Assembly (NCBI GenBank): GCA_029259455.1
Contig: JAPDIT010000053.1
Span: forward strand, 1-33,037
Direction of reading: 5' to 3'
Origin: Archaeoglobi archaeon
GTDB lineage: Archaea > Halobacteriota > Archaeoglobi > Archaeoglobales > Archaeoglobaceae
DNA: 33,037 nucleotides
Part shown: in pieces, positions 1-33,037 of the stretch
How the letters are laid out: each line of letters begins with the position of its first letter
Numbering within the stretch: position 1 is the first letter of the stretch
Program-made: the position numbers and the translations under genes
The notes under the pieces: generated by a model
The model's database searches: none
The model's input: only the letters and a program-made list of their open reading frames with translations
Told to the model about the DNA's origin: nothing

Positions 1-75
1 TACTTTATTTCTCTCGAAGATGTTGAATCTCAGCATCTCAATCAGGTCATTTTCTGCTATATCCGCCGTCACCAT
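1..75 (-). CDS. 5' end of an unidentified protein, truncated by window edge (MVTADIAENDLIEMLRFNIFERNKV...)
   Basis: Open reading frame from an ATG at 75-73 (minus) to the window edge; a TATA-like element (tataaatata on the minus strand, about 98-110) lies at the expected distance for a nearly leaderless start. Only 25 codons visible. Confidence 0.4.
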   Translation of the reverse strand, partial: MVTADIAENDLIEMLRFNIFERNKV

Positions 76-97
76 AAAGTGAATAGATGCTGCCCAA

Positions 98-110
98 TAT
101 ATTTATACTA
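98..110 (-). promoter_or_regulatory. Putative archaeal TATA/box A for the minus-strand gene at the left edge
   Basis: Minus strand reads agtataaatatattgg about 25-30 nt upstream of the ATG at 75; it overlaps the stop codon of the ABC permease. Confidence 0.4.
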
Positions 111-879
111 TTCTATGCTTATTCGGATACATCCCAGTACTTCTCTCAAAGGAAACCATTGCAGTGTAAAGCATTACTGCTGTTAGCACCAGAAGGATTA
201 GCAGGCTTTGGTGAAGTGGAAAAATCCCGCTCGCTCCAGTAAGCAGAACTCTTGATGCTTCAACGGCGTAAGTGAGCGGATTGACGAGTGCGAGTACTTT
301 CATCCATGAAGGCATGAAAGAAATGGGATAAATTGCTCCGCTGAGGAAATCAATGGAAGCATCACGAGAGCCATCATCATCTGAAAGCCCTCCATGCTTC
401 TCATTCTTGCTGCAATGCTCACTCCGAAGCTGGAGAAGGCGACAGCAAGAAGAAATCCAACCAAGAGCCAGAATCACACCGAAAATGTCGATTTTGGCAA
501 TGAACAGAGTAAGGGAGAGTATAATGGCACCCTGAAGTGTTGCTACTGCTGAATCACCAAAAATTCTGCCAGCTATCGTTTCCTTTCTCGATGCAGGGGC
601 GACAAGCACTTCTTTCAAAAATCCGAATTCCCTGTCCCAAATGACGCTGATCCCACTCACAAAGCTCTGGTTGAAGACGGTCATGGCGAATATACCGGGG
701 GAGAGGTAGGTGAGGTAGTCAACCCCACCGAAAATGCTTGTATCTCTAAAAGCGCGGCTCCATCCGATGCCGAAGAAAGTCAGCCAGACAAGAGGGTTTA
801 TAATCATCCCTGCAACTCTTGATCTGGCCCTCAAAAACCGTTTTACCTGCCTGTAAACCATGATTTCAAACGCCCTCAT
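103..879 (-). CDS. ABC-2 type (DrrB-like) exporter permease with an apparent internal out-of-frame segment
   Basis: N-terminal (MRAFEIMVYRQVKRFLRARSRVAGMIINPLVWLTFFGIGW...YLTYLSPGIFAMTVFNQSFVSG) and C-terminal (FLSGAIYPISFMPSWMKVLALVNPLTYAVEASR) motifs of ABC-2 permeases. The middle (RLLQLRSEHCSKNEKHGGLSDDDGSRDAS) is atypical, and a normal hydrophobic segment lies in another frame. Confidence 0.8.
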   Translation of the reverse strand: MRAFEIMVYRQVKRFLRARSRVAGMIINPLVWLTFFGIGWSRAFRDTSIFGGVDYLTYLSPGIFAMTVFNQSFVSGISVIWDREFGFLKEVLVAPASRKETIAGRIFGDSAVATLQGAIILSLTLFIAKIDIFGVILALGWISSCCRLLQLRSEHCSKNEKHGGLSDDDGSRDASIDFLSGAIYPISFMPSWMKVLALVNPLTYAVEASRVLLTGASGIFPLHQSLLILLVLTAVMLYTAMVSFERSTGMYPNKHRIV

Positions 880-880
880 G

Positions 881-1848
881 CTACCGCCTTATCCTTGCCC
901 TGGTAATCCCCTTCATCAGATTTCCACCCTCACCCCTAATCTCTCTCCCGGTGAGGTGAAGGAAAACATCGTTGAGAGTGGGTCTGTGATATGCGATCTC
1001 TAAAATTTTAATGCCCTTCCTTTCTGCGGCCTCAAAAATTTTGGGAATGGCCTCACTTGCATTTGAAACATCAATTCTGATTCTGCCGTCTGGCAAAACA
1101 ACACAATTGCCCAAATCAGTTTCAAAGCACTCAGCCCCATTTTCAGCCTTCAGATAAACCACGTCACTCCCCACAAGCTTTTTGAGCTCTTCAACAGTTC
1201 CATCTGCAATAATCCTGCCGTGGTCGATTATCGCAACTCTGTCTGCAAGCCTTTCCGCCTCCTCCATATAGTGAGTTGTAAGGAAAATCGTCATTTCCTG
1301 CTCTCCTTCATCGCCTCAATGTAACTCCACACGTGGGCTCTTGTTTGAGGGTCTAGGCCAAGTGTAGGCTCGTCCAGAAATAGCACTTCGGGATGATGCA
1401 GCAGAGACCTCGCTATTTCCAGCCTCCTCTGCATCCCCCCACTGAAGTATTTGACAAGCTTGTTTCGAAACTCCCACAGTTCCACAAACTTCAAAAGCTC
1501 CTCAACTTTCTCCTTCAGCTCTCTGCCTTTCAAACCATAAACCCCACCGTGAACGAGCATGTTCTCGTAAGCTGTAAGGTCTCTGTCCACGCTCGGATCC
1601 TGAAAAACTATGCCAATCCTTTTTCTCACCTCCTTGGCATCTTTCACAACATCGTAGCCCGCAACAATTGCCTTTCCTGAAGTGGGCTTGAGAAGTGTCG
1701 TGAGAATATGAACAGTCGTTGTCTTTCCAGCCCCGTTTGGGCCGAGAAAGGCGAAAATCTCACCTTTTTTCACCTTGAAGCTGACACCTTTAACCGCCTC
1801 GAAATCCCCAAATTTCTTTACGAGATTCTCAACTTCGATGGCATACAT
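881..1848 (-). pseudogene. DrrA-like ABC transporter ATP-binding protein split by a frameshift (ORFs 1291..1848 and 881..1294)
   Basis: N-terminal ORF has Walker A (GPNGAGKTT), signature (YFSGGMQRRLEIARSL) and Walker B (VLFLDEPTLGLDP) and stops at IEAMKESRK*. The following ORF in another frame resumes with the H-loop region ([28 protein letters not shown]). Together they make one normal ATPase. Confidence 0.8.
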
Positions 1849-3841: not shown

Positions 3842-5656
<1,815 letters not shown>

Positions 5657-5667
5657 GGTGAAGTGAA

Positions 5668-9667
<4,000 letters not shown>

Positions 9668-30161: not shown

Positions 30162-31147
30162 CTCCCCTGCTTGGATGTTGTGCTTACGTAAACAATACTC
30201 ACACCGTCAAACTCCGCCTTTGGTGGCCTGATTGCATCTCTCATTCTTATCAACCTCTTAACCGGCCCCGGAACCGAGCCAGTTATGAGGACATACTGAG
30301 TTCTGATTACTCCGTAGTGTAGGAATCCACCATTTGGAGTAATCTCTTCTCCGTTCTCCCCAATCTTGATTAGCCTCTTGTTGTACTCGGTTCTCTGGTG
30401 GAACCCCATCTGCCCTGCCTGCGGAACTGTCCACCTCACGCGGTGGGGATTCCAAGGACCTAGAGTTCCAACTCTTCTGTGCTTGCTGCTTCTCGCATGC
30501 TTTGCATCCAGCGTAATCACACCCCACCTCTTAACCGGCCCCTGGAATCCCTTGCCTTTCGTCACCGCTATTACATCAATAATCGCACCTTCCTCAAAAA
30601 CCTCAGAAACTTTTATTTCGCCACCGAGCTTGGATATTGCGTAATCGAGAGCCTCTTCAACATTTCCTCCAATTTTGTGCTCCATAACATCAGGAACCTT
30701 CTTCGGGACTCCCGTGATGAGGTAGGGCTGCGTGTAGGTTACAACCCTCACCTCTGAGGCGTTCTCAACTTTCTTGAGCTTATCCACATCGGGCTCCTTT
30801 CTGGGAAGATTCAGCCTCCTGTTGAGAAAATCATCCAGATTGTTGCTCCAGACCTCTGCTGCAATCTGCATTCCATACTGCGTTTTCTTGTAAACCCTCA
30901 CCGCTGCAACTTTCATCGGTGGCGTCTCTATTACTGTAACAGGAACCACGATCTCCTCACCGTAGGTGGGAGAGTTCTTTCTGTCATCTATCATCACCAC
31001 GTGTGTCATCCCTGCCTTGTAGCCCGCAAATCCCTGCATCCTCACCGTATCGCACTCTGGCCACGACCTGATTCTTGGAACGATACTCTTCGCCCTTTTT
31101 CTTGGAGAAAACCCTAAAGAACCCCTTCTCGGTCTGTGATACTTCAT
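30158..31147 (-). CDS. rpl3: 50S ribosomal protein L3
   Basis: MKYHRPRRGSLGFSPRKRAKSIVPRIRSWPECDTVRMQGFAGYKAGMTHVVMIDD...GVTKGKGFQGPVKRWG-type core (AVTKGKGFQGPVKRWGV), GTLGPWNPHRVRWTVPQAGQMGFHQRTEYNKRL. Confidence 0.97.
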   Translation of the reverse strand: MKYHRPRRGSLGFSPRKRAKSIVPRIRSWPECDTVRMQGFAGYKAGMTHVVMIDDRKNSPTYGEEIVVPVTVIETPPMKVAAVRVYKKTQYGMQIAAEVWSNNLDDFLNRRLNLPRKEPDVDKLKKVENASEVRVVTYTQPYLITGVPKKVPDVMEHKIGGNVEEALDYAISKLGGEIKVSEVFEEGAIIDVIAVTKGKGFQGPVKRWGVITLDAKHARSSKHRRVGTLGPWNPHRVRWTVPQAGQMGFHQRTEYNKRLIKIGENGEEITPNGGFLHYGVIRTQYVLITGSVPGPVKRLIRMRDAIRPPKAEFDGVSIVYVSTTSKQGR

Positions 31148-31914
31148 TTCAAACCACCCCAGTGGTCTGCAAAATTAACAAGTGAAAGAGTGGCGAAGAT
31201 AGCTTCCTCTAACCTCACAGTTTTCGTTCCCTGATTCGGCACCACATTCCAGCACTCTGCCTCCATCTTGATCCCCAACCTTTTCGCAATTTCGAACACG
31301 CCCTCTTCCGGATTTCCGAACACGAGCGTGACGTCACGTCTTAACGCTGGTGGCTTCACAACCTCACACTTTCGTGAGGTTACCACCAGATTTTCTCTCC
31401 TTACGAGCTCCTCCAGCCGGAGCTTTTTCACTCTGTAACCCCAATACTTTTGGGGCTTTGCCTCTTCAACCCGCAACGGCGTCTTCGAACAGATCCTGAC
31501 GGTCACGCGGGCGCCCTTTTCAGCATCACTTTTCAGGGGCGCCAGGGCGTCGATGCCGATATCCACCCATCGCGTCCCGTCAGGGGCAACGTGTCTTACA
31601 ACGCCCTCCCTCATTTCACCGACTTTTAAATGTTTCGACGTGTGAGAGGGAATGGCGAGAGGTGGGAGCAAACCAGCGTACCTCAATGATTTTTTGAGAG
31701 GAAAAAGCTGTTTCCTCAGGTACTGTGGTGTTTCGAGGTATTCGAGTATTTCGGCAATGAAGTCGGACTCATCAAGTATTGGGTCATAATATATTAGTAT
31801 TTCATCTACTCTGAAAACTGCCGCAGCTCTCGCTATCAGTCCCACCTTGTATGTTTTAATCTTCTCATCCCTCTCGTTTATTAGAGATGAAGAGGGTATC
31901 GCTATCGAGAGCAT
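31144..31914 (-). CDS. Predicted SPOUT-superfamily RNA methyltransferase (DUF171/COG2106-like)
   Basis: LSIAIPSSSLINERDEKIKTYKVGLIARAAAVFRVDEILIYYD...LPPLAIPSHTSKHLKVGEMREGVV and VTLVFGNPEEGVFEIAKRLG; conserved position upstream of rpl3 in archaea. Confidence 0.85.
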   Translation of the reverse strand: MLSIAIPSSSLINERDEKIKTYKVGLIARAAAVFRVDEILIYYDPILDESDFIAEILEYLETPQYLRKQLFPLKKSLRYAGLLPPLAIPSHTSKHLKVGEMREGVVRHVAPDGTRWVDIGIDALAPLKSDAEKGARVTVRICSKTPLRVEEAKPQKYWGYRVKKLRLEELVRRENLVVTSRKCEVVKPPALRRDVTLVFGNPEEGVFEIAKRLGIKMEAECWNVVPNQGTKTVRLEEAIFATLSLVNFADHWGGLK

Positions 31915-31945: not shown

Positions 31946-31959
31946 GTATTTTAAGTTTG
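31946..31959 (-). promoter_or_regulatory. Putative TATA promoter of the long ribosomal protein gene cluster
   Basis: Minus strand caaacttaaaatacc about 30-40 nt upstream of the ATG at 31914. Confidence 0.4.
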
Positions 31960-32000
31960 CGTACAGAACCAACTGTGATATCCCGAAATAATTTCACTCT

Positions 32001-32810
32001 TCAAACAACCACCCTGCTATACTCAAAACCCCTTTCAGCAGGCAACTTCCTCAAAAAAGCCTGATAGGGAGTCTCCAGTTCATCAAAGTTCAGGCTCATG
32101 TGTGGCATAATTATACCAGTGAACAAACTCCTCTAAAGAATCAAACAAATGGAGCTTCTGCTCCATCAAACCAAAGAACCTCTCAATCTTCGTTTGTTTG
32201 TGGATGGTTTATTCTGGCAAGGATGTGCCTTACTCCATTCTCTTTCAGGAATTCTTTAAACTTGTGTTTAGCCTTCTCTCCTGATTTAGCAGCAACGAAC
32301 TGTTCAGGATCAGTAAGGATTTCATTGGAACTCCGTACTCAGCGGTTTTCTGTGGTGGCTGAGTCAAATACTCCGTAACAGGTTATGAAGCGGGAAGCAT
32401 CATCCATGAATGCGATTATCCATTCGCCGTTGAGCCTTTTCCAGTCTCCCTGCCATAGAGACATTGAATGCTCTCTTTCGTAGCGAACCCGCTTCCTTCT
32501 TGTTCACACCCTCCTCCACCAGATTGTGTTTTAACAGGACTATAGATGGTGTTGTGAGGGATATGGATGCCGTAGTCCCCTTTCTATCAGCTTTTCTAGT
32601 GGGACTTAGTTTGTACCTCTGCTAGACTTCCAAGACAATTCTTTCCGTTTTCTGTTTTGGTCTTCTTCCCGGCTGTTTCAGTCTGGTATTTCGCCACTTG
32701 GTGTTACTCTCATCACTGCTGTTATTTCCTTTACCAGAGTACCCTTGTTTAGTTGTTTGATTATCCATCTGATTTTGTTAGTTAGCTTTCTCGCAAGAGT
32801 TGGGTTTAGG
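32001..32810 (-). pseudogene. Degenerate DDE (rve/integrase-core) transposase remnant with several frame breaks and stops
   Basis: Minus-strand fragments in different frames: KLTNKIRWIIKQLNKGTLVKEITAVMRVTP; SIVLLKHNLVEEGVNKK; SLWQGDWKRLNGEWIIAFMDDASRFITCYGVFDSATTEN; TDPEQFVAAKSGEKAKHKFKEFLKENGVRHILARINHPQTN; IERFFGLMEQKLHLFDSLEEFVHWYN; SLNFDELETPYQAFLRKLPAERGFEYSRVVV*. Order and spacing fit one integrase-core transposase. Confidence 0.8.
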
Positions 32811-32874
32811 TTTGAAATAATTTTGACAACATGTTGGAATTTTCAGCAGACCGAGCCTGCAGTTAGTAGTATCC

Positions 32875-32891
32875 CTGCGCTAAAAGCGCGG
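32875..32891 (+). repeat. Short hairpin (CTGCGC-TAAAA-GCGCGG) just upstream of the IS110 transposase
   Basis: Inverted repeat GCGC/GCGC extended by C-G and T-G pairs around a TAAAA loop. Confidence 0.5.
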
Positions 32892-32927
32892 AATTTTGAC
32901 TTAACAGGCGAAAAGGATGGTGGTAGT

Positions 32928-33037
32928 GTGTTAGAAGCACGAATAGGTGAGTATCCGGTCTGCATTGGAATAGATGTTCACAAAAAGTACTCGTATGTGG
33001 CTATAGTTGACGAAACGGGAGAAATAGTAGAAGAGAT
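32928..33037 (+). mobile_element. 5' end of an IS110-family (DEDD) transposase, truncated by window edge
   Basis: GTG start, then LEARIGEYPVCIGIDVHKKYSYVAIVDETGEIVEE; GIDVHKKYSYVAIVDETG is the characteristic IS110 N-terminal motif. Confidence 0.8.

Follow-up and report, generated by a model that had tools for sequence, protein, structure and literature searches.

The 33,037-nucleotide stretch of DNA analysed here (the window) carries, near its start, the genes of a DrrA/DrrB-type ABC exporter disrupted by three short deletions. Two of these fall in the permease gene and sum to -3, which restores the reading frame after a stretch in the wrong frame; the third is uncompensated and splits the ATPase gene. 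We slightly favor the reading that all three are local consensus errors, to which we give a probability of about 0.52, over a real and very recent pseudogene. Whether error or recent decay, the drrAB case is an ordinary one. The window belongs to a draft genome (G000) of 82 contigs and 879 kb in total, which is 55% complete. Its features are listed in Table 1.

Table 1. Features of the window at the drrAB locus, with the evidence or remark that applies to each.
Feature	Position	Strand	Basis or remark
Window	33,037 nucleotides	forward	Entire contig C3 of the draft genome
Insertion-sequence end, including the first transposase codons	1-136	-	Homology to relatives begins at 137
DrrB-type ABC-2 permease ORF, 258 aa	103-879	-	Centre out of frame, C-terminus IS-derived
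1-base deletion site	348/349	-	Alignment to three same-genus genomes
Shifted-frame segment	349-462	-	Conserved ABC-2 membrane segment encoded in the next frame
2-base deletion site	461-463	-	Alignment to three same-genus genomes; exact place in a short C run ambiguous
DrrA-type ATPase gene, split into two ORFs	881-1848	-	ORFs, domain matches, relatives
ATPase ORF, H-loop and DrrA C-terminal domain	881-1294	-	drrA positions 175-302
ATPase ORF, Walker and signature part	1291-1848	-	drrA positions 1-173
1-base deletion site, uncompensated, ATPase gene	1303/1304	-	Alignment to three same-genus genomes

A preliminary description of this DNA had pointed out a 258-aa ORF with a polar centre and an ABC-2 segment one frame over, and our analysis bears out both observations. 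Within the shifted-frame segment the ORF encodes a polar peptide, and the next frame reads WLLVGFLLAVAFSSFGVSIAARMRSMEGFQMMMALVMLPL. Taken alone, WLLVGFLLAVAFSSFGVSIAARMRSMEGFQMMMALVMLPL matches PF01061 with an E value of 1.9e-4 at profile positions 135-173. The flanking in-frame pieces match the same profile at 2-133 and 175-209, and the three pieces together cover it without overlap and with almost nothing lost. A Pfam family search with the in-frame polar piece returned no match. The peak 19-residue hydropathy is 2.26 for WLLVGFLLAVAFSSFGVSIAARMRSMEGFQMMMALVMLPL versus -0.22 for the polar piece, which replaces about 37 residues of membrane segment in the window permease. Moreover, the syntenic genes in L009, L010 and L011, from three genomes of the same genus, share 95% identity with WLLVGFLLAVAFSSFGVSIAARMRSMEGFQMMMALVMLPL, which was matched in 75 of the 88 loci tested, some of which are one place counted twice. 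The syntenic relatives carry the normal-frame segment, and in close relatives the polar sequence is seen solely as their out-of-frame translation. The conditions that the preliminary description had set for its own refutation thus turned out in its favor.

The deletions were located by alignment to three genomes of the same genus: G003 (MAG S5B4_HD70, JAPDIW01), G001 (MAG GB_MAG2_100) and G004 (a single 2,178,400-bp contig). These share 31.8 kb of synteny with the window, with a DNA identity of 84-89%, and none of them has any of the three deletions. Synteny with all three ends in the window at 31952-33037, right after the gene at 31144-31914. In six same-genus copies of the locus the permease and the ATPase are each open in a single frame, and the compensating -2/-1 pair is present in none of these six relatives. 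The preliminary description had proposed two opposite single-base changes that cancel. The cancelling holds; the sizes do not, since the supposed gain of one base is actually a loss of two, which is the same modulo 3. Undoing the two changes was also said to restore a fully normal permease. This is incomplete at the C-terminus, where relatives end in FERSTVE*; in the window neither their final two residues nor their stop codon is present, and ten residues derived from an insertion sequence (IS) close the ORF instead. The preliminary description overlooked this IS and the deletion in the ATPase gene.

The ATPase gene of the window contains no continuous ATPase, and each of its two pieces scores under the drrA (TIGR01188) cut-off. 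The two ORFs overlap by four bases (ATGA, 1291-1294), and the restart methionine of the downstream ORF corresponds to an internal methionine in relatives. Upstream of the ATPase start codon, the stretch at 1850-1865 is shorter than in the three relatives, which also differ from one another there.

The IS at the start of the contig is multicopy (window 1-136; L002-L008, L143 and L144) and breaks contigs in both G000 and G003. Many contigs of the draft genome carry this sequence at an end or close to one. The start of its transposase resembles MVTADIAENNLVELLKEFDIFERNEV, and a relative matches DDE_Tnp_IS240 just under the Pfam cut-off.

Beyond the ABC genes, the window encodes tRNA-Lys, RNA polymerase, translation factors and ribosomal proteins. 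The ABC coding sequence, 1,745 bp long, has three frame-breaking indels and the contig's other 29,016 bp of coding sequence yielded no supported one, a distribution with a probability of about 2e-4 under uniform placement. The rest of the draft genome was examined as sampled stretches. Because tblastn frame-switch screens are blind to cancelled indel pairs, a gap-based screen was added, in which gene-end hits against one reference alone were not counted. ORF lengths were normal in 19 sampled contigs. On contig C29 (L034), a regulator-like gene at 5150-5750 has a 27-base gap and about six indels that break the frame, with an N/S not above that of relatives; its counterpart in G003 is the ORF at 4789-5568 of L122. 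Compared with three relatives, the same contig has a 2-base insertion at 674, close to where a thioesterase-like gene begins and 86 bases from an insertion-sequence end. A second ABC permease gene, at 2760-3130 on contig C26 (L037), differs from two relatives by gaps of -9, -5 and -1, of which the -5 and -1 cancel as well. A search for an intact second drrAB copy returned just a partial match of 38% identity on C26, itself gapped, in this 55% complete genome.

These observations limit the kinds of error that can be considered. Uniform sequencing error across the assembly is ruled out by the lack of any supported frame break in the contig's other 29 kb of coding sequence and by the normal ORF sizes in the other contigs sampled. 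Nor can error be general to contig ends or IS flanks, as the DNA adjoining the same IS on contigs C10 and C32 is clean. Hence, with the rest of the contig, the ORF lengths and these two IS flanks all normal, any errors must be very local. Consensus error is nevertheless slightly favored because the relatives compared at these sites all have the normal frames, because indels without decay recur in patches of the assembly (drrAB and C29), and because a repeat forms the contig end at which the locus lies. The dispensable kind of the affected genes counts against it. Both the attribution of the deletions to error and a low read support in the region are inferences. The locus is the ordinary two-gene DrrA/DrrB-type ABC exporter of this Archaeoglobus-genus lineage, adjoining tRNA-Lys and the RNA-polymerase/ribosomal-protein cluster. 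In this single draft assembly it carries a -2 and a -1 in the permease, cancelling by chance, together with an uncancelled -1 in the ATPase. On the favored reading, the errors would lie only within ~1.3 kb of the contig start, the place at which the multicopy IS would have halted assembly, and the living cell would possess a normal exporter save for the insertion at the permease C-terminus.

The main competitor is a real and very recent pseudogene, for which we see somewhat less than an even chance. In this scenario drrAB was dispensable, the IS hit the last codons of the permease and three deletions followed, two of which sum to -3. The position of the IS in the permease end fits such a course, as does the restriction of the breaks to a dispensable operon while the essential genes of the contig are clean. 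The likewise gapped permease paralogue on C26 and the bias of archaeal indels towards deletion (PMC9997560) point the same way. The substitutions specific to the window's branch speak against it, as they include neither an excess of nonsynonymous changes nor, in the reading frames, any substitution to a stop codon. The N/S count of drrAB on this branch is 14/39, versus 140/435 for other genes on the same branch (P 0.74; rpoH omitted from the totals) and 20/69 for the same drrAB genes in two relatives (P 0.69). By this measure relaxed selection was sought on this branch and none was found; gene death that is very recent would leave no trace in it. Mutation-accumulation lines of archaea show about 8.7 substitutions per indel (PMC9997560), so that three neutral indels should be accompanied by about 26 neutral substitutions. 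The drrAB data leave room for no more than roughly 10-15; three neutral indels together with so few nonsynonymous changes have a joint probability of 0.055-0.075. For the six-indel gene on C29, with its unrelaxed N/S, the same kind of probability is 0.0025.

The preliminary description had left the choice between paired sequencing errors, which remain plausible, and a second indel that rescued the frame of the first. Such a rescue, yielding a working protein whose central segment is new, is in our view very improbable. It can draw on a permease ORF that stays open across the shifted stretch and on the genuine compensated -2/-1 pairs of animal genes, although the quality filters of that survey, the one systematic survey found, retained 6 of its 624 candidate genes (PMC8935012). 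By chance alone, a pair of random frame-breaking indels restores the frame in about half of all cases, and what was put in place of a conserved hydrophobic segment is a polar stretch. The partner ATPase is frameshifted too, and since this third deletion is uncompensated and an IS occupies the last permease codons, no working exporter has been rescued. Programmed recoding is just as hard to credit. Here stop-restart at the ATGA overlap would give the ATPase as two polypeptides, and frameshifting would give the permease. The four-base overlap would suit this, but each gene is single-frame in relatives, the restart methionine is their internal one, and three recoding sites would be needed within 1 kb of one genome. 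Least probable of all is a combination of a genuine pair with a shifted permease that functions alongside a split ATPase produced by stop-restart; this would be an archaeal compensated frameshift that replaces a transporter membrane segment.

The case matters mainly as a caution. Despite its shifted centre, the window permease ORF scores 296 bits against drrB (TIGR01247), in two stretches, and passes the curated cut-off of 223; the permease of an intact relative scores 382. After a cancelled indel pair the ORF thus keeps its full length and a score above the family cut-off, and checks of ORF length or family score will miss the pair. The present case was exposed by the neighboring uncompensated frameshift and by comparison with relatives.

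The locus resembles known DrrA/DrrB-type ABC-2 exporters (TIGR01188, TIGR01247, PF01061, PF00005 and PF13732) in its gene order, in its domains and in the full-length scores of its intact relatives. It departs from them in an ATPase split by a frameshift, a permease centre that is out of frame and a C-terminus that runs into an IS. The permease deletions also recall the compensatory frameshift pairs of Biba et al. (2022; PMC8935012), being likewise losses of two bases and of one base, separated by about 110 bases; in RAB36, deletions of the same types lie 99 bases apart (PMC8935012). Unlike those pairs, the one in the window occurs in one assembly alone, is known from DNA only and has a partner gene whose frame is broken. 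A third comparison is with the gene-fragmenting indel errors of draft assemblies, such as the problem addressed by Kastor (PMC12007338). The indels of the window's genome lie in patches and not across the whole genome; the two cases share short indels, intact close relatives and a lack of substitutional decay.
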